Origin: a virus
Virus record (IMG/VR): IMGVR_UViG_3300044940_000235
Location: 1-39,370 of that record
Reading direction: 5' to 3' (one strand)
Length of the DNA: 39,370 nt
Part shown: positions 8,771 to 39,370 of the stretch, piece after piece
Layout of the letters: each line of letters opens with the position of its first letter
Numbering within the stretch: the stretch's first letter is position 1
Notes under the pieces: generated by a model
Databases searched by the model: none
Seen by the model: the letters and a program-made list of their open reading frames with translations, nothing else
Told to the model about the DNA's origin: nothing
Program-made: the position numbers and the translations under genes

Positions 8771-9243
8771 TGAACCGAACGACTCTGGCGCAGCTGCGTG
8801 AGATGGACGTGCAGGAGGCAGCGACCCTCCCGATCGACCACCTCTCAATGCTGCTGGAAGAGGTCGCGGAGCTTCGCACCGACGCGAAGCGTCTCTCCGA
8901 CCTGCTGCACGACGCGCTGCATGCCCGCTACGGCGAAGCGGCTGCCGCGGCCCGTCGCGCCGAGGGCAAAAACACCGGCCGCGTCCGCCTGGAGGATGAC
9001 GGCTTCGAGATCGTCGCCGATCTGCCGAAGCGCGTGGAGTGGGACCAGGCCAAACTGATGGAGGCGATCGCCACGATCCGCGGCTGGGGGGAGGACCCTG
9101 CCGACTACGTCACCATCGAGGTCCGCGTTCCAGAAAGCCGCTTCACTGCGTGGCCGCCGCGCATTCGCGCGGTGTTCGAACCGGCCCGCACCGTCGGCAC
9201 CGGACGCCCCTCCTACACCCTCGAACCGAAGGACGCCGCGTGA
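8767..9243 (+). CDS. Hypothetical protein of the recombination module, 158 aa
   Basis: The start is 8767 or 8770. The N-terminal half is helical and rich in Glu and Leu (PIDHLSMLLEEVAELRTDAK, then RLSDLLHDALHARYG), likely a coiled coil. The C-terminal half is beta-rich, with FEIVADLPKRVEWDQAKLME and YVTIEVRVPESRFTAWPP. Proteins of this form are common immediately upstream of Sak4-like ATPase genes in proteobacterial phages, and their role is not established. It ends one base before the ATPase start. It may assist recombination or DNA binding (inference). Confidence 0.85.
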   Translation: MMNRTTLAQLREMDVQEAATLPIDHLSMLLEEVAELRTDAKRLSDLLHDALHARYGEAAAAARRAEGKNTGRVRLEDDGFEIVADLPKRVEWDQAKLMEAIATIRGWGEDPADYVTIEVRVPESRFTAWPPRIRAVFEPARTVGTGRPSYTLEPKDAA

Positions 9244-9244
9244 T

Positions 9245-10036
9245 ATGGCGATCTCCCTGGCATCGATCCGACGCGGCGGTGAGGCACGCCCTCCGCGGCT
9301 GCTGATCTACGGCGTGGCAGGCGTCGGCAAGACCAAGCTTGCCGCCGATGCGCCGAACCCGGTCTTCCTGCAGACAGAGGACGGGCTTGGCAACATCGAG
9401 GCTGCGACCTTCGGGCTGCTGCGCAGTTTCGATGCGGTCTTGGAGGCGCTCGGCAGCCTCTACTCCGAGGCGCACGACTTCCAGACGGTCGTCGTCGACA
9501 GCCTCGACTGGCTGGAACCGCTGATCTGGCAGCACACGGCGGCGCTGCACAACCAGCCGGACATCGAGACCTTCGGCTATGGCAAGGGCTACCTCGCTGC
9601 GCTCGACACCTGGCGCAGCTTCCTCGATGGCGTGAACGCGCTGCGCGACGAGCGCGGCATGGCGGTGATCTTCCTGGCGCATGCCGAGATCCGGCGCTTC
9701 GACAGCCCCGAAACCGAACCTTACGATCGCTACCAGCCGAAGCTCCACGCGCGGGCATCCGCGCTCGTGCAGGAGCATGTCGATGCCGTGCTCTTCGCGA
9801 ACTACCGGATCAGCACGCTGAAGTCGGATGTCGGCTTCAACAAGAAGGTGGTGCGCGGCGTCTCCGGCGGCGATCGCGTGCTGCACACCGCCGAGCGGCC
9901 GGCCTTCCTGGCGAAAAACCGCTTCGGGCTGCCAGAGACGCTGCCGCTGTCCTGGCCCGAGCTCGCCGCCGGCATCCCCTTCTACGCGGCGCCGCAGGCC
10001 GCCGCCCCCGTCTCCACCACCGCAGCCCGGAGCTGA
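9245..10036 (+). CDS. Sak4-like AAA ATPase (phage nucleotide-binding protein)
   Basis: 263 aa. Walker A is GVAGVGKT at residues 23-30, and a Walker B-like strand TVVVDSLDW begins near residue 81. The N-terminus (MAISLASIRRGGEARPPRLL) and the later FLAHAEIRRFDSPETEPYDR segment are typical of the AAA_24/Sak4 group of RecA-like phage single-strand annealing ATPases. It should bind ssDNA and promote annealing together with an SSB. The next gene encodes a DUF669 protein, the usual partner. This provides a second annealing system besides RecT. The start lies one base after the previous gene. Confidence 0.9.
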   Translation: MAISLASIRRGGEARPPRLLIYGVAGVGKTKLAADAPNPVFLQTEDGLGNIEAATFGLLRSFDAVLEALGSLYSEAHDFQTVVVDSLDWLEPLIWQHTAALHNQPDIETFGYGKGYLAALDTWRSFLDGVNALRDERGMAVIFLAHAEIRRFDSPETEPYDRYQPKLHARASALVQEHVDAVLFANYRISTLKSDVGFNKKVVRGVSGGDRVLHTAERPAFLAKNRFGLPETLPLSWPELAAGIPFYAAPQAAAPVSTTAARS

Positions 10037-10039
10037 GTC

Positions 10040-10573
10040 ATGGCCTCCCTCACCTTCGACGCGACAACAATCGCGCCTGCCACCCCGTTCGAGGTGTTGC
10101 CGCCCGGCAAATACCTGGCGCACATCATCGAGAGCGAGATGATCCCCACCAGGATGGGCGACGGCCAATACCTCAAGCTGACCTTCGAGGTCCTGGAAGG
10201 ACCGTATCAGGGTCGCAAAATCTGGGACCAACTCAATCTGGTGAACGCAAACCAGCAGACGGTGGAGATCGCGCAGCGCATGCTCTCCGCCATCTGCCAC
10301 GCGGTCGGCCAGGTCCACGTCAGCGACAGCGAGCAGCTGCACTTCAAGCCGCTGATCGTGACGCTGAAGGTCGAGCCCGCCGGTCCCGACAAGGGCGGCG
10401 TGCACCGCGAGGCGCGGAACAAGGTGACCGGGTATGCCGCGCCCAACGCGGGCATTGGCGCCCCGCCCGCGCCGCGCCCCGCGCGTCCCGCACCCCGCCC
10501 TGCCGCCCCGCCCGTCCCCCCGGCTGCGCGCCCTGGCGGCACGGCGCCCCCGCCCTGGCGACGCAATACCTGA
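10040..10573 (+). CDS. DUF669-family ssDNA-binding protein
   Basis: 177 aa. Residues 1-120 match DUF669 (FEVLPPGKYLAHIIESEMIP, then GDGQYLKLTFEVLEGPYQGR, then IWDQLNLVN). This family works with Sak4-like recombinases as a phage SSB. The C-terminal 45 residues are a proline/alanine/arginine low-complexity tail (RPARPAPRPAAPPVPPA) ending PPPWRRNT. Bacterial SSB proteins end in an acidic tip that recruits partners; here the end is basic instead, so partner recruitment must differ. It is three bases downstream of the ATPase gene and clearly cotranscribed with it. Confidence 0.88.
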   Translation: MASLTFDATTIAPATPFEVLPPGKYLAHIIESEMIPTRMGDGQYLKLTFEVLEGPYQGRKIWDQLNLVNANQQTVEIAQRMLSAICHAVGQVHVSDSEQLHFKPLIVTLKVEPAGPDKGGVHREARNKVTGYAAPNAGIGAPPAPRPARPAPRPAAPPVPPAARPGGTAPPPWRRNT

Positions 10574-10578
10574 TCTCC

Positions 10579-10605
10579 CGCCGGCAGGCAATGTGCCTGC
10601 CGGCG
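10579..10605. other. Perfect 12-bp hairpin after the SSB gene
   Basis: CGCCGGCAGGCA, a three-base loop (atg), then TGCCTGCCGGCG. No T run follows, so it is unlikely to be a full terminator. It may stabilise or punctuate the message between the SSB and nuclease genes. Confidence 0.6.
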
Positions 10606-10630
10606 CCTGTTTCTCCGGCGAAATCCAGCC

Positions 10631-11581
10631 ATGGTCGTCCTGCCGCCTCCATCGAGCCCCACCGTCGACGCCATCTATGCCGCCTACGAGGCAGCGGCGG
10701 ATAGCGGCTACCGCGCGCATCTCGGCGCATCGCTGATCGGCGCCGAGTGCGAGCGCGCCATCTGGTATACCTTCCGCTGGGCCACGCGCGCCCGGCACAC
10801 GGGCCGCCTGCTCCGTCTGTTCGAGACGGGCCATCTGGCCGAGGCGCGCTTCGTCGCCGACCTCCGCCGCATCGGCGTCACCGTGCTCGACGTCGATCCG
10901 GCGACCGGGCGGCAGTGGAGCCTCCGCGACGCAAGCGGCCACTTCGGCGGCAGCATGGATGCGGTGGCCAAGGGCTTCCCCGAGGCGCCGGCGACCTGGC
11001 ACGTCTGCGAGTTCAAGACCCACAGCGCCAAGTCCTTTGCCAGGCTGAAGGCCGAGGGTGTCGCCGCCTCCAAGCCGCTGCACTGGGCGCAGATGCAGGC
11101 CTACATGCAACTCTCTGGCCTCAATCGCGCATTCTATCTGGCGGTCTGCAAGGACACGGACGAGCTCTACCAGGAGCGCGTCCGACACGATGCGGAGGCG
11201 GGGCTGCGGCTCCTGGCGAAGGCCACGCGCATCATCAACGCGCCCCGACCGCCGGCCCGCATCAGCGACGACCCTGCCTGGTGGCAGTGCCGCGCCTGCG
11301 ACCACCACGCCGTCTGCCATGGCGGCGCTGCGCCGGAGCGGCACTGCCGGTCCTGCCTGCACGCCTCGCCAGTCCATGGCGGTGATTGGCACTGCGCCCG
11401 GCACGATGTCCCGCTTGACCGGCGGAACCAGGAGGCAGGCTGCGCGGCGCATCTCTACATCCCAGATTTCATCGCCGCAGAACAGATCGACGCCGGCGAA
11501 GATTGGGTCAGCTATCGAATGCCGGACGGCAGCGAATGGCGCGACGGCGCCACCTTCTCCAGCACAGGAACCACGCCATGA
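10631..11581 (+). CDS. RecB/Cas4-like PD-(D/E)XK exonuclease with cysteine cluster
   Basis: 316 aa. Catalytic residues are Asp110 (GGSMDAVA) and Glu127-x-Lys129 (CEFKTH), followed by the QMQAYM motif of RecB-family nucleases. Cys40 (IGAEC) together with Cys220, Cys223 and Cys229 (WQCRACDHHAVC) reproduces the one-plus-three cysteine layout that holds a 4Fe-4S cluster in Cas4 and AddB. Cys239, Cys242 and Cys255 with nearby histidines could form a separate zinc site. It should resect DNA ends to provide ssDNA for the Sak4-like protein. It follows the hairpin at 10579-10605, and its stop overlaps the next gene. The iron-sulphur assignment is inference. Confidence 0.88.
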   Translation: MVVLPPPSSPTVDAIYAAYEAAADSGYRAHLGASLIGAECERAIWYTFRWATRARHTGRLLRLFETGHLAEARFVADLRRIGVTVLDVDPATGRQWSLRDASGHFGGSMDAVAKGFPEAPATWHVCEFKTHSAKSFARLKAEGVAASKPLHWAQMQAYMQLSGLNRAFYLAVCKDTDELYQERVRHDAEAGLRLLAKATRIINAPRPPARISDDPAWWQCRACDHHAVCHGGAAPERHCRSCLHASPVHGGDWHCARHDVPLDRRNQEAGCAAHLYIPDFIAAEQIDAGEDWVSYRMPDGSEWRDGATFSSTGTTP

Positions 11582-13784: not shown

Positions 13785-14134
13785 TATGCAGCGCCTGTCG
13801 CCTTCGCACCGCCCGCGGCTTCGGGTGGTTCGACCCGCGCAGTCGAACATCCGAGCCGCTCCCGGCCTGCTCCATGCGCTGCATGAACGCGCTTTGCCGG
13901 AGGTGGGGCGTGATTGATCCAGACGAGCATGAAAAGGCCGCCATCGCAGCCGCCAGTCCCATGGCCGGGGAGTATCTGGACAGCATCGGGAAAACCGACC
14001 TCGCGATGCTGACCGAAGCTGAGTGGCTGACGCTGCTCGAGGTGATCATCACCGCCTACCAGGACGAACTCGCGCGCCGGCTGGACCAGGGATGGCACCC
14101 AGCACCGCCTCTCACAGTGGAAGAGCCATCGTGA
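13781..14134 (+). CDS. DUF6511-like zinc-binding protein, 117 aa
   Basis: GTG start within the helicase stop (GTGA). The N-terminal region has CSACRLRTARGFGWFD and CSMRCMN, two cysteine pairs that look like a small zinc-binding domain; the GFGWFD sequence is typical of proteins annotated DUF6511 (recalled). The C-terminal part is helical (AEWLTLLEVIITAYQDELAR). It lies between helicase and primase-polymerase genes with overlapping starts and stops on both sides, so it probably belongs to the replication complex. Its biochemical role is not established. Confidence 0.85.
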   Translation: MICSACRLRTARGFGWFDPRSRTSEPLPACSMRCMNALCRRWGVIDPDEHEKAAIAAASPMAGEYLDSIGKTDLAMLTEAEWLTLLEVIITAYQDELARRLDQGWHPAPPLTVEEPS

Positions 14135-16485
14135 CGCAGCCATCTTTCATGGCCGACTATGGCGAGCGCCTGGTCGACAACGGCTACTCCGTCATCCCGA
14201 TCATGCCAGGCAGCAAAGTGCCGGGGCAGTTCCGCAAGGGCGAGTGGTCGCCTTATCCCGACTGGGCGCGTCATTGCGACCGCGCGACGAAGTCCTTTGA
14301 GGTGGACATCTGGCGACGCTGGCCCGGGTGCGGCGTCGGCATCGCCTGCGGCACCGTCGTCGGCATCGACATCGATGTGCTGGACGGCGCACTCGCCATC
14401 CAGCTCGCCGAGCTCGCGGCCAGCATGCTGGGCGACACGCCCTGCGTGCGCATCGGCCGCGCCCCGAAGCGCCTCCTGGTCTACCGCGCGGCCACGCCCT
14501 TCCCCGGCCGCAAGCGCCACCCCCTCGAACTGCTGGCCCGCGGTCAGCAGTTCGTCGCCTATGCGGTGCATCCCGACACCGAGCGGCCCTACGAGTGGCC
14601 CGAGGAGAGCCTGGTCGAGACGCCCATCTCGCGCCTGCCCGAGGTGGACGAAGCGAGCTGCCATGCATTCCTCGACGCTGCGATGCGGCTGGTCCCAGAG
14701 GAAATGCGGGTCAAATCGATCCTGGCGAAGGAGTCGAACGGCGGCTGGCACGGGCCGAGCGACCCGAAGGGCACGCGCGAGGCCATCGCCGCCGCCCTGG
14801 CCTGGATCCCAAACGACGACCTGCCCGGCGACGAATGGATCACCATCGGCGCGGCCATCAAGGCAGCGCTGGGCGAAGAGGGACGGGACCTGTGGATCGC
14901 CTGGTCGCGCCAGTCCAAGAAATCCGGCCAATCCGGACGCCACGACACGCCTGAACGGCGCTGGGCGGCTCTCCGGCCGCACAGCGTGGGGGCCGGGACG
15001 ATCTACTGGCTTGCCGAACAGCGCGGCTGGAAGCCAGACCCTGCCCTGATCCTGAATGGCACCATAGCCAAGCAGCTGGCGCAGCCCAACCCGGCCACGG
15101 CCCTGCTGGCGAAGGTCGCCTCGCCCCCCCCCCGCACCGCCCCGCCGCCGAAGCCATATCGCGTTCCGCCCGAGCTGCTGCAGGTGGACGGCGCGCTGCG
15201 CATGTTCCTGGACTACGCCACCGCCAGCGCCGTCAGCCCGCAGCCCTTCCTCTCGCTCGGGGCGGCCATCTGCCTGGTGGGCACCATCGCGGGGCGGCGC
15301 TATCGCACTCCCACCGACCTGCGCAGCAACATCTACGCGATCGGGATCGCCGACAGCGGAGGCGGCAAGGACCATGCCAGACGCTGCGTGAAGCGGGCAA
15401 TCTATGCGGCGGGCCTAGATCGCTACCTCGGCGGCGAGGATCTGGCCTCCTCGGCCGGGCTTCTCACCTCCTTGCAGCGCCATCCCGCGCGGCTCTTCCA
15501 GGTGGACGAATTCGGCCAGTTCCTGAAACAGGTCCTCGCCCCGCGCGCCCCGGCGCACAAGGCGTCCATCTGGTCCGAGTTGACCAAGCTCTACACCTCG
15601 GCGGCAGAGCCCTACATCGGCACCGAATACGCCGACCAGAAGACGCGGCCGCGCGTCACCATCGAGCAGCCCTGCGCCTGCATCTGGGGCGTCACCGTGC
15701 CTGGGCCGTTCTGGCAGGCGCTGGAAGGCGGCGCGCTCGCAGATGGCTCCATGGCACGCTTCCTGATCTTCCTCACCGACGAGGACTATCCCGACCGCAA
15801 CGAGACGCCCGCGCCAATGGACCCGCCCCCGGACCTGGTGGCGGCGCTGCAGGCGATCGCACGCGGCGTGCCTGGCCACAGCCATGGCGGGAACATCGCC
15901 GACGCCATGGAGTCCTCGGCGCCGATTCACGCCTACACGGTGCCGCTCAGCCCCGACGCAGAGCGCGCGATGCAGGCAGTGCGGCATAAAGCCCTCGATC
16001 TGCTGCGCGCGCATCGCGGCACCTACGCCACCGCCCTGTTCGGGCGCTACGCGGAGCACGTCGCCAAGCTGGCCATGATCGCAGCCGTCAGCCGCGATCC
16101 AGCGCAGCCAGTGACGCAGGCCAGCGACGTCGCCTGGGCGGCGGCGCTCGTTGAGCACTGCATCGACACGCTGCGGCAAGACGCCGAGCGCTTCGTGGCC
16201 GACACCCCGGCCCACGCGCGCCTCAAGAAGGTCTTGGAAATCATCCGCAAGGCCGGTAGGATCAGTCGCAGCGCATTCGTTCGGAAGACGCAATTTCTAT
16301 CCAAGGTTGAGCGCGAGGACGCCATCGCAACCTTGCTGGACAGCCGCCAGATCACAATCGAGGCCGCGACGAGCGCTTCCGGCCCCGACACCTGCTGGAT
16401 CGTCGCCACCGATCCGCAGGAGCCCCACGACCGCGACCTGCGTGGCCAGGGGGGGGTTGGGAGAGAGGACCTTGAAAAGTCTTGA
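14131..16485 (+). CDS. Primase-polymerase fused to DUF3987-type helicase
   Basis: 784 aa from a GTG that overlaps the previous stop; an ATG seven codons in is possible. Residues about 1-200 form a bifunctional primase/polymerase (Prim-Pol) domain with CGVGIACGTVVGIDID, whose DxD holds the catalytic metal ions. A proline-rich linker follows near residue 335, encoded by ten consecutive C at 15124-15133. The C-terminal half is DUF3987-like, with a P-loop variant GIADSGGGKDHARR (Asp where Thr or Ser is usual) and a Walker B-like RLFQVDEFGQF. It should prime and unwind at the origin. The last codons lie inside the iteron array at 16472-16661. Confidence 0.88.
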   Translation: MTQPSFMADYGERLVDNGYSVIPIMPGSKVPGQFRKGEWSPYPDWARHCDRATKSFEVDIWRRWPGCGVGIACGTVVGIDIDVLDGALAIQLAELAASMLGDTPCVRIGRAPKRLLVYRAATPFPGRKRHPLELLARGQQFVAYAVHPDTERPYEWPEESLVETPISRLPEVDEASCHAFLDAAMRLVPEEMRVKSILAKESNGGWHGPSDPKGTREAIAAALAWIPNDDLPGDEWITIGAAIKAALGEEGRDLWIAWSRQSKKSGQSGRHDTPERRWAALRPHSVGAGTIYWLAEQRGWKPDPALILNGTIAKQLAQPNPATALLAKVASPPPRTAPPPKPYRVPPELLQVDGALRMFLDYATASAVSPQPFLSLGAAICLVGTIAGRRYRTPTDLRSNIYAIGIADSGGGKDHARRCVKRAIYAAGLDRYLGGEDLASSAGLLTSLQRHPARLFQVDEFGQFLKQVLAPRAPAHKASIWSELTKLYTSAAEPYIGTEYADQKTRPRVTIEQPCACIWGVTVPGPFWQALEGGALADGSMARFLIFLTDEDYPDRNETPAPMDPPPDLVAALQAIARGVPGHSHGGNIADAMESSAPIHAYTVPLSPDAERAMQAVRHKALDLLRAHRGTYATALFGRYAEHVAKLAMIAAVSRDPAQPVTQASDVAWAAALVEHCIDTLRQDAERFVADTPAHARLKKVLEIIRKAGRISRSAFVRKTQFLSKVEREDAIATLLDSRQITIEAATSASGPDTCWIVATDPQEPHDRDLRGQGGVGREDLEKS

Positions 16486-16661
16486 AGAGTGGCGGCGCTA
16501 AGCTTTTGAAAAAGCGAACTATTCAAACTTTTCAACTCTTCAACCAGGGGGGGGAGCTATACGCGTGCTGCCTGTGGGGGAATACCTTGTTGAAGAGTTG
16601 AAGAGTGTGAATAGTTTTATTTTTCAAAGACTTAGGATCACCACTCTTCAAGACTCTTCAA
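16472..16661. repeat. Iteron-bearing inverted repeat, candidate replication origin
   Basis: A 9-base element, TTGAAGAGT (sixth base also A, once T), occurs twice forward at 16472 and 16482 and three times reversed at 16518, 16527 and 16535. It recurs three times forward at 16590, 16598 and 16607 (the last with G first) and twice reversed at 16643 and 16653. All ten pair exactly about 16566.5. The 72-base arms (16472-16543 and 16590-16661) align without gaps at 60 of 72 positions, around a 46-base centre. Runs of eight G (16447-16456 region and 16547-16554) and ten C (16664-16673) flank the arrays. The block is much more AT-rich than its surroundings and directly follows the primase-polymerase, as expected of an origin. 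A giant transcript hairpin is the alternative. Confidence 0.7.
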
Positions 16662-16690
16662 ATCCCCCCCCCCTGCCACGAGAAGCAGGC

Positions 16691-16789
16691 ATGACTAAGC
16701 CAGCCGGCCCGGCCCCCATCTCCCCTATCCCCCCCATCCCCCCCAGCTGCGGCGCAGCCGCCGCCCCCGAGAATGCCCATGGGCGGTAA
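16691..16789 (+). CDS. Possible proline-rich leader peptide, 32 aa
   Basis: ATG at 16691 preceded by AGAAGCAGG. It reads MTKPAGPAPISPIPPIPPSC and then an Ala-rich end, overlapping the start of the next gene in another frame. Proline clusters can stall ribosomes, so a regulatory leader is conceivable. The frame may equally be chance in a C-rich spacer. Confidence 0.2.
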   Translation: MTKPAGPAPISPIPPIPPSCGAAAAPENAHGR

Positions 16790-17348
16790 GCGGAAACCGA
16801 AGCCAGCGAAGCAACCCAGGCCCCTGGGCCCGTCCAGGTGGCGCCTGCAGCACGGCAGCTTCTCCGAGCCGATCCGCGAGGCAGACCCCGAAACCGGCAC
16901 CCCGGTCGTGCATCGGCGCGCGATCGACACCCTCGGCCAGATGCTCGCCAACGGCACCATCACCCAGGAGATGCACGACGCCGGCGGGCTCTTCCGCCGC
17001 CAGTTCCGCGCTGCCGCGCTCGACGCGCTCCGCGCCGCCCCCCTGCTCCGACTCCCTGCCGCGACGGGCGACACCATCACCGAGCGCCAGACCCAGGCCC
17101 GCCGCCAGATCGCTGCAGCCATGACCACGCTCGGCGGCCCAAGCAGCGCCCCCGGAAGCTGCGTCTGGCACGTGGTCGGCCTCGAGTGCTCGATCCGCGA
17201 ATGGGCCATGCGCCAGGGCTGGAACGGCAGACCCGTGCCGGCCAGCCAAGCCCAGGGCATGCTGGTGGCCGCGCTCGCCGTCCTGGCGACGCACTACGGC
17301 CTGCCCTTGCGTCGCCCAAAATGCCGCCCCCCTCAAAAAGCCGTTTAG
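16779..17348 (+). CDS. DUF6456-like DNA-binding protein, 189 aa
   Basis: The start at 16779 was preferred over 16773 because GAGA is six bases upstream. The N-terminus is basic (GGKRKPKPAKQPRPLGPSRW). The central and C-terminal parts follow the DUF6456 pattern: MHDAGGLFRRQFRAAALDAL, then R and Q residues in a helix, then CVWHVVGLECSIREWAMRQG, then a final helix with LAVLATHYG. This family is frequent in alphaproteobacterial phages just before the terminase genes. The conserved Trp, Glu and HYG residues suggest an HTH-like fold. The likely role is regulation of replication or late genes; this is inference. Confidence 0.75.
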   Translation: MGGKRKPKPAKQPRPLGPSRWRLQHGSFSEPIREADPETGTPVVHRRAIDTLGQMLANGTITQEMHDAGGLFRRQFRAAALDALRAAPLLRLPAATGDTITERQTQARRQIAAAMTTLGGPSSAPGSCVWHVVGLECSIREWAMRQGWNGRPVPASQAQGMLVAALAVLATHYGLPLRRPKCRPPQKAV

Positions 17349-17706
17349 CGGGCCGTACAGGGCGGTCAGGCGATTTCCGCACCCACCCTAGCACCCAGGC
17401 CGCCGAAAGCCGCCAGGCGCCAAATTTCCCGGGTTTTCGGGTGCGGTTTCGGCCGGGGCGTCTCCCCCCCCTGCCTCGGGCTTGCCCCCGCGCCGACCCA
17501 AAATGCTGCATTGACAGCTGAAACTCACATCGCATACCTTCCCGCCATTCGTCGGATTGCGCCCTGCGCAATCCGCATCCTCGCGCACCACATCGACGGT
17601 GGCTGGCGAGCCGCATGGTTCCTTCCTGGCCCCGGCGTATGCGGGGGGCGAAAGCGCGACGGTTTTCTGGTAGGCGGGGTCTTCGGGCGAGTGACGGCTC
17701 CAGCGT
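17349..17706. other. 358-base gap before the terminase genes
   Basis: No convincing gene was seen. The first half is GC-rich and has clusters of GGCCGCC/GCCGCCAGGCG-like repeats, which could be terminase recognition sequence. The second half contains the TTGACA promoter and an untranslated leader. In a lambda-type packaging system cos would be expected close to the small terminase gene, so this is the best place to look for it. No cohesive end can be recognised by eye. Confidence 0.5.
17511..17538 (+). promoter_or_regulatory. Late promoter upstream of terminase
   Basis: A perfect -35 TTGACA (17511-17516), a 16-base spacer, and CATACC (17533-17538) as -10; with 17 bases the -10 would be ATACCT. 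The weak -10 with a perfect -35 would suit activation by a region 4-containing protein such as the one encoded at 11578. The leader to the TerS start is about 160 bases. Confidence 0.5.
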
Positions 17707-39177: not shown

Positions 39178-39370
39178 TCAGTCTGCTGCGGCCGCCCCCG
39201 CCCCAGGCTGGCCCCCGCGCCGCCCCAGCCGAGGCGGGGGGTCAGCCAGGCGCCGCTCAAGCCAGGCCACAACCTCCGCAGGCGGGCTGGCGGTGCCATT
39301 GCACCACCGGTCGACCGCGCTCCTGGTGCGCCCGGTAGCGCGCGCAAGCCAAGGGCGGCTGACGCCAGCC
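39178..39370 (-). CDS. Small HTH DNA-binding protein, C-terminal part (continues from position 152 through the junction)
   Basis: This is the remainder of the junction-spanning HTH gene. Reading leftward from the repeat, the frame runs through WLERRLADPPPRLGRRGG and ends in an Ala-rich tail, with stop TGA at 39180-39178. The stop faces the rightward lysis operon, which ends at 38988. The intrinsic terminator at 39087-39122 separates the two converging transcripts. The bases 39254-39370 repeat positions 1-117, and the true start codon lies only at 152 in the left copy. Confidence 0.65.
   Translation of the reverse strand, partial: AGVSRPWLARATGRTRSAVDRWCNGTASPPAEVVAWLERRLADPPPRLGRRGGQPGAGAAAAD
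39254..39370. repeat. Terminal direct repeat, right copy
   Basis: Exact copy of positions 1-117. Removing one copy gives a 39253-bp circle in which the minus-strand HTH gene is intact. Confidence 0.95.

Follow-up and report, generated by a model that had tools for sequence, protein, structure and literature searches.

What is the role of an inverted array of short repeats that begins inside the last codons of a phage primase gene, and which protein reads it? The array considered here lies in a viral DNA of 39,370 nt (IMG/VR record IMGVR_UViG_3300044940_000235; the whole stretch is called the window), where positions 16472–16661 hold ten copies of a 9-base element in the order two forward, three reverse, centre, three forward, and two reverse. 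The copies start at 16472 and 16482 (forward), 16518, 16527, and 16535 (reverse), 16590, 16598, and 16607 (forward, the last being GTGAATAGT), and 16643 and 16653 (reverse). Copy mapping confirms the number, order, and pairing given in an earlier sequence-only reading of this DNA: all ten copies mirror their partners exactly about position 16566.5 (start plus end, 33133). Nine of the ten are within one mismatch of TTGAAGAGT, a word that at this tolerance has 10 matches in the whole window compared with 2.3 in dinucleotide shuffles (shuffle maximum of 7). The ungapped arms measure 77 nt, are 83% complementary, and enclose a 36-nt loop, which is equivalent to the 72-nt arms with 60 matches described before; their symmetric-arm score is 44.5, compared with at most 11.5 in 60 shuffles.

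The outer left iterons, TTGAAAAGT at 16472 and TTGAAGAGT at 16482 (16472–16490, forward strand), overlap the end of the primase gene, the stop codon of which (TGA) occupies 16483–16485, as had been claimed. They are followed by the inner left block of three reverse iterons (16518–16543, reverse strand), a 46-nt centre that contains a G8 run at 16547 and TACGCGTG (16544–16589), the inner right block of three forward iterons (16590–16615, forward strand), and the outer right iterons (16643–16661, reverse strand). The homopolymer runs formerly described as flanking the arrays flank them only in part: a C10 run at 16664 and a G run at 16449 do so, but the G run at 16547 is inside the centre. The AT content reaches a maximum of 77% at 16598–16627, and we regard the segment 16598–16634 as a candidate DNA-unwinding element. 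Two predicted IHF-like sites separate the repeat blocks, TTTCAAAAGCTTA at 16499–16511 (reverse strand), with one mismatch to the consensus WATCARNNNNTTR, and TTTCAAAGACTTA at 16622–16634 (forward strand), also with one mismatch; the second is an exact match to the consensus in five relatives (L003, L004, L028, L032, and L103).

The gene that the array overlaps (14023–16485, forward strand; its GTG start is uncertain) encodes a primase-polymerase that we propose to be the origin-binding initiator. Pfam models match its Prim-Pol and PriCT_2 domains, and PHROG DNA primase matches cover most of its length. These domains are followed by a helicase-like region, to which Pfam assigns no helicase class, and a C-terminal winged helix, an architecture shared with pRN1-type replicons that have a downstream origin. 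No match to the DUF927 or D5/Primase_Cterm helicases of the SaPI Rep type was found in Pfam at E 0.01, and of the earlier label "primase-polymerase/DUF3987" only the first half can be kept, the protein falling below the Pfam DUF3987 level. The C-terminal domain (about residues 729–795, encoded by 16207–16407, forward strand) was modelled by AlphaFold2 as a winged helix with a core pLDDT of 93–96; fold comparison returned many winged helices at Z near 10, and no single family stands out. Downstream of the array lies a DUF6456-like gene (16773–17348, forward strand; 26.1 bits against a gathering score of 26.3), and Nu1-like and gpA terminase genes begin 1.2 kb downstream of the array. Elsewhere in the window, a 770-codon open frame without a PHROG match (9143–11452, reverse strand) is possibly spurious, and a direct terminal repeat of ~117 bp (1–117 and 39254–39370) is consistent with a circular map or a circularly permuted genome.

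Scans with the window primase identified 79 viral loci and 36 in genomes, most of those with a name being Acetobacteraceae; ~200 related sequences were compared overall. The sequence-only reading had called for such a comparison, and both the position and the layout of the array recur. The gene order primase, array, DUF6456 is kept in most relatives, and in nearly all of them one short word is repeated in inverted blocks on the 3′ side of the primase gene. The layout is common to them: the first outer copies stand close to the stop codon, the inner blocks (reverse, then forward) enclose a GC-rich centre, and reverse outer copies end the array. Relatives with the same primase and no array, which that reading had named as evidence against itself, were not encountered in the window's own family. 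The word itself changes. Approximately seven words are in use, namely TTGAAGAGT (class A), TTGACGTAT-like (class B), TTGAATTAT-like, TTGAGGAAT, TTGAACAAA, TTCGGTTAT, and AATAACAAA, with strong repeat scores for most classes and weak ones for others (e.g., the G2 group). DnaA boxes are an unlikely identity for the copies, given that the word varies between phages and a host DnaA box would not. Every iteron class has a 30-nt AT peak (70–93% AT) right of the centre. Exact IHF-consensus sites number eight in the window's family, compared with 0.2 in shuffles that ignore relatedness, and they occupy fixed places; this excess is suggestive of IHF sites within the arrays. Most relatives (including L005, L034, and L059) also have an extra open stretch of ~65 codons between the array and the DUF6456 gene, about +220 to +430 from the primase stop, with sequences such as TPEMEALRRRVWQQQGV and DITDPWLRQAI; the window is without it. 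Insertions between array and DUF6456 gene are found in L030, L046, L090, and L105, in which DUF6456 lies ~1.1 kb past the stop, and in L078 and L101 (863 bp).

These comparisons bear on the proposal, made for pRN1 and BIP-1 and offered as an alternative in the sequence-only reading, that a giant RNA hairpin or a DNA cruciform is the functional element. The window sequence does fold with unusual stability (z of −11.7 as RNA and −9.7 as DNA), and the integrity of the stem matters in pRN1 (PMC4234260). A stable stem-loop 3′ of the gene is, however, confined to the window and its close relatives and absent from many relatives that keep the iterons, across which the DNA hairpin z ranges from −10 to +1.7. 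Even in L002 and L003, which are close relatives, the outer copies are out of register; mismatches of the G-U and A-C types are equally frequent (4 and 4), Rfam gives only far sub-threshold miRNA-like matches, and the conserved pairing with compensatory or G-U changes characteristic of a structured RNA was not found. We therefore abandon the giant RNA hairpin and consider a hairpin or cruciform function very improbable. The inverted arrangement of short repeats around a centre also recalls an attachment site with integrase arm-type repeats; in the relatives L080 and L085, which lie on large chromosomal contigs, the array is intact between the primase and DUF6456 genes and not at a junction with host DNA, and we give this explanation almost no credence.

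To see which protein might read the word, iteron class was compared with sequence identity along the primase. Iteron classes were assigned to 92 loci of the primase family with a k-mer script and partly by hand, the loci being related and redundant. The C-terminal ~75 residues of the primase predict the class with an AUC of 0.997, whereas residues 40–735 do so less well (AUC of 0.735). When the protein is divided into blocks of 20 residues, the AUC is 0.51–0.76 over residues 40–719, jumps at 720, and reaches 0.996 at 760–779. At the DNA level, the associated block extends from about −260 to +180 around the primase stop, with flanks near 0.55. The sequence-only reading had named two possible binders, the primase-polymerase and the DUF6456-like protein; the class follows the winged helix of the first and hardly follows the second (AUC of 0.55; its nearest neighbour gives the correct class in only 40 of 88 cases), which makes the primase the likely iteron binder on this comparative evidence and leaves the DUF6456-like protein as a conserved neighbour, apparently not a specificity partner.

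Two pairs of phages look as if the winged-helix codons and the array had been exchanged as one block. Between L011 (class A) and L084 (class B), identity is 95% in the N-terminal part of the primase and 97% in DUF6456, but only 40% in the winged-helix part, and their iterons differ; the divergent island extends from about −260 to +250 around the stop between near-identical flanks. L034 and L039 repeat this pattern with classes C and F. Five loci from a later scan, outside the 92 classified (L310, L311, L312, L314, and L315), have N-terminal parts nearest class C and C-terminal parts nearest class A; the iterons are of class A in every one of them. New iteron words are found in L337 and L359, the C-terminal parts of which are distant; the word of L359 is GAAAACTCA / TGAGTTTTC, around an AT-rich region. 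Linkage could explain part of the association, the C-terminus and the array being adjacent in most loci. Against linkage, the DUF6456 side is about as close and shows no association, and an array 1.3 kb away from the primase, described below, still matches the winged helix. The same evidence bears on packaging. The array could be a cos site for the Nu1/gpA terminase that follows, given the position of these genes 1.2 kb downstream, but relatives keep the array without the window's Nu1/TerL genes next door, the repeat word tracks the primase and not the packaging genes, and the 360 bp between DUF6456 and nu1 would be a more natural position for cos; we think this highly improbable.

Searches with the primases of Rhizobium phage N65, Sinorhizobium phage AP-16-3, and Bordetella phage BPP-1 extended the comparison to more distant lineages. 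N65-type phages, with an AAA_25 helicase, have about 11 direct iterons at near-fixed spacing and use several words, and 11 IHF-consensus sites (0.1 in shuffles that ignore relatedness) occupy fixed places; many distant N65-type loci had no detectable array near the gene. BPP-1-type phages, with a D5_N helicase, have four iterons, a tandem pair on one side of a centre and an inverted pair on the other; the four agree within most phages and differ between phages. No IHF-consensus sites were found in BPP-1-type phages, and no tandem iterons were seen in BPP-1 itself. Among the other loci, no array was found in L123. A fixed motif like GCTAAGTCATTGAAATCATTGA, resembling an IHF site, lies between variable iteron blocks in L127 and L132–L138, and the window array has a similar motif. 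In the BPP-1-type loci L227 and L260, the region 3′ of the primase gene has half-arrays of iterons that are expanded or duplicated, perhaps as intermediates of array rewriting.

Whole-block comparison of the BPP-1 and N65 lineages gave no domain-swap signal; the signal is instead at single residues. Among 26 non-redundant BPP-1-type primases, for which the iteron triplets were read by eye from the arrays, the strongest co-variation with the three variable iteron positions, out of 589 columns, is at residues 841–844. The residue pair 841/842 accompanies the triplet ACG when it is RD (8/8), TCG when it is KD (4/4), and TCC when it is KN (2/2); other pairs are KG (CCA or CCT), MN (TTC), QH (GTA), and IY (TAG). 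The two-residue key is incomplete, given that RS is found with TCA and CAC and RG with TCA and ACA. The primases of L242 and L243 are the same except at 12 of 870 residues, five of which fall at 838–842, and all four iterons differ by a change of T to C. A structure model places these residues at the tip of the wing of the winged helix. Searched against PDB sequences, neither of the two C-terminal domains had a significant match. These comparisons suggest that two wing-tip residues nearly fix the variable iteron triplet in BPP-1-type phages. In N65-type phages, the column that ranks first for iteron position 1 lies 21 residues before the C-terminus, presumably also in the wing.

The AP-16-3 lineage includes three contigs (L212, L214, and L219) that seemed to lack an array, the situation that the sequence-only reading had singled out as adverse. 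Their winged helices are 88% identical to that of AP-16-3, and the array has moved: a gap of ~1.3 kb with small open frames separates it from the primase gene, and the arrays of L212 and L219, which were inspected, keep the AP-16-3 word, as predicted. L217 is 95% identical to L212 in the N-terminal part and 72% identical in the winged helix, and its word differs.

Taken together, the array and its co-variation with the winged helix make it very probable that the block is an iteron-type origin at the 3′ end of its initiator gene, that the winged helix of the primase binds the 9-mers, and that word and helix are exchanged as a module. The earlier proposal of a candidate origin with a dedicated phage initiator is the best-supported reading, with one of its two named binders. 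Clustered short repeats beside a putative initiator gene and an adjacent AT-rich region, both expected of an iteron origin, are present. The cumulative GC-skew minimum of the window, at 17594, is weak evidence in its favour. BPP-1, L123, and the many distant N65-type loci, in which no such array was seen near the gene, count against it, as does the outcome of binding work on pRN1 described below. In the mechanism that we envisage, the C-terminal winged helix would bind the 9-mers, as the co-variation suggests, and the inverted blocks would load two initiator assemblies face to face, with the DNA bent at the IHF-like sites that separate the blocks. Melting would take place in the AT-rich stretch to the right of the centre, and unwinding and priming would fall to the helicase and primase domains, which are fused in one protein; the analogies are with P4 alpha, SaPI Rep, and pRN1. 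Melting, helicase loading, and priming at the array are predicted steps that draw on these analogies. The repeat word of each phage would fit the winged helix of that phage, and the two would pass between phages together as one module.

The co-variation taken alone says that the winged helix of the primase is matched to the repeats, and it would also suit an operator or copy-control site through which the primase regulates itself or the downstream DUF6456 gene, with replication starting elsewhere. Iterons often have a second role in copy control. Nevertheless, the site is 3′ of the primase gene and no sigma-70-like promoter was found, the AT-rich and IHF-like elements suit an origin, and characterised systems of similar plan (pRN1 and SaPI) use that position as an origin; we judge an operator unlikely. 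Returning to the origin, we lean towards a broader statement, that PrimPol phages share a modular origin specificity in which the layout is fixed, the iteron word is free and rewritten in all copies at once, a few wing residues spell the word, and phages that share a replication gene exchange the module. We speculate that swapping is driven by origin-targeting defences or by incompatibility with related prophages, by analogy with the PLE system, for which an origin-directed nuclease, Odn, is known (PMC8263062). If these proposals are correct, sequence alone would be enough to locate the origins of many uncharacterised phages and prophages and to predict their compatibility groups; L011/L084 and L242/L243 provide natural matched and mismatched pairs. 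Among the papers searched, none was found that ties iterons to Prim-Pol phages or describes a wing–iteron key. The position and plan of the origin were already known; its readable and swappable specificity module seems to be new.

Among the closest precedents are pRN1 and Bordetella phage BIP-1/BPP-1, in which a stem-loop directly 3′ of the replication gene is the proposed origin (Berkner et al. 2014, PMC4234260). The window resembles them in having the element directly 3′ of a Prim-Pol gene with a C-terminal winged helix and in the combination of conserved flanks with a variable element. No iterons were reported at the pRN1 origin (PMC4234260), whereas short iterons recur here in many phages, among them relatives of BPP-1 (BPP-1 itself excepted), and conservation does not extend to the stable hairpin. 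In the pRN1 study, no specific binding of the replication protein to the downstream stem-loop was found, and the question of what such a PrimPol protein recognises at an origin downstream of its gene was left unanswered (PMC4234260); our comparisons favour iterons, which the C-terminal domain would read through its wing. The primase-helicase alpha of phage P4 likewise binds origin repeats through a C-terminal winged helix (PMC4234260), although the P4 primase is of the Toprim type and the primase described here is archaeo-eukaryotic (Prim-Pol). In the SaPI Rep-ori and SCCmec Cch2 systems, the C-terminal domain of an initiator helicase reads short iterons directly downstream of its gene (PMC7581432); the array described here shares this position, with recognition suggested by co-variation. 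Those systems belong to staphylococcal islands, often have a separate primase, and are described, in the sections considered here, without a residue-level wing–iteron key (PMC7581432); a Pfam match of the SaPI Rep helicase type, not found for the window primase, is present in the BPP-1-type relatives as D5_N. PLE RepA-ori differs in having an N-terminal RepA_N domain and ~30-bp semi-palindromic iterons, but there too the DNA-binding domain of the initiator and the iterons co-vary, only the cognate pair functions, and the pair is swapped as a module (PMC8263062). The rapid exchange of origin words in the phages studied here hints that phage origins are under a pressure similar to the one described for PLE satellites (PMC8263062).
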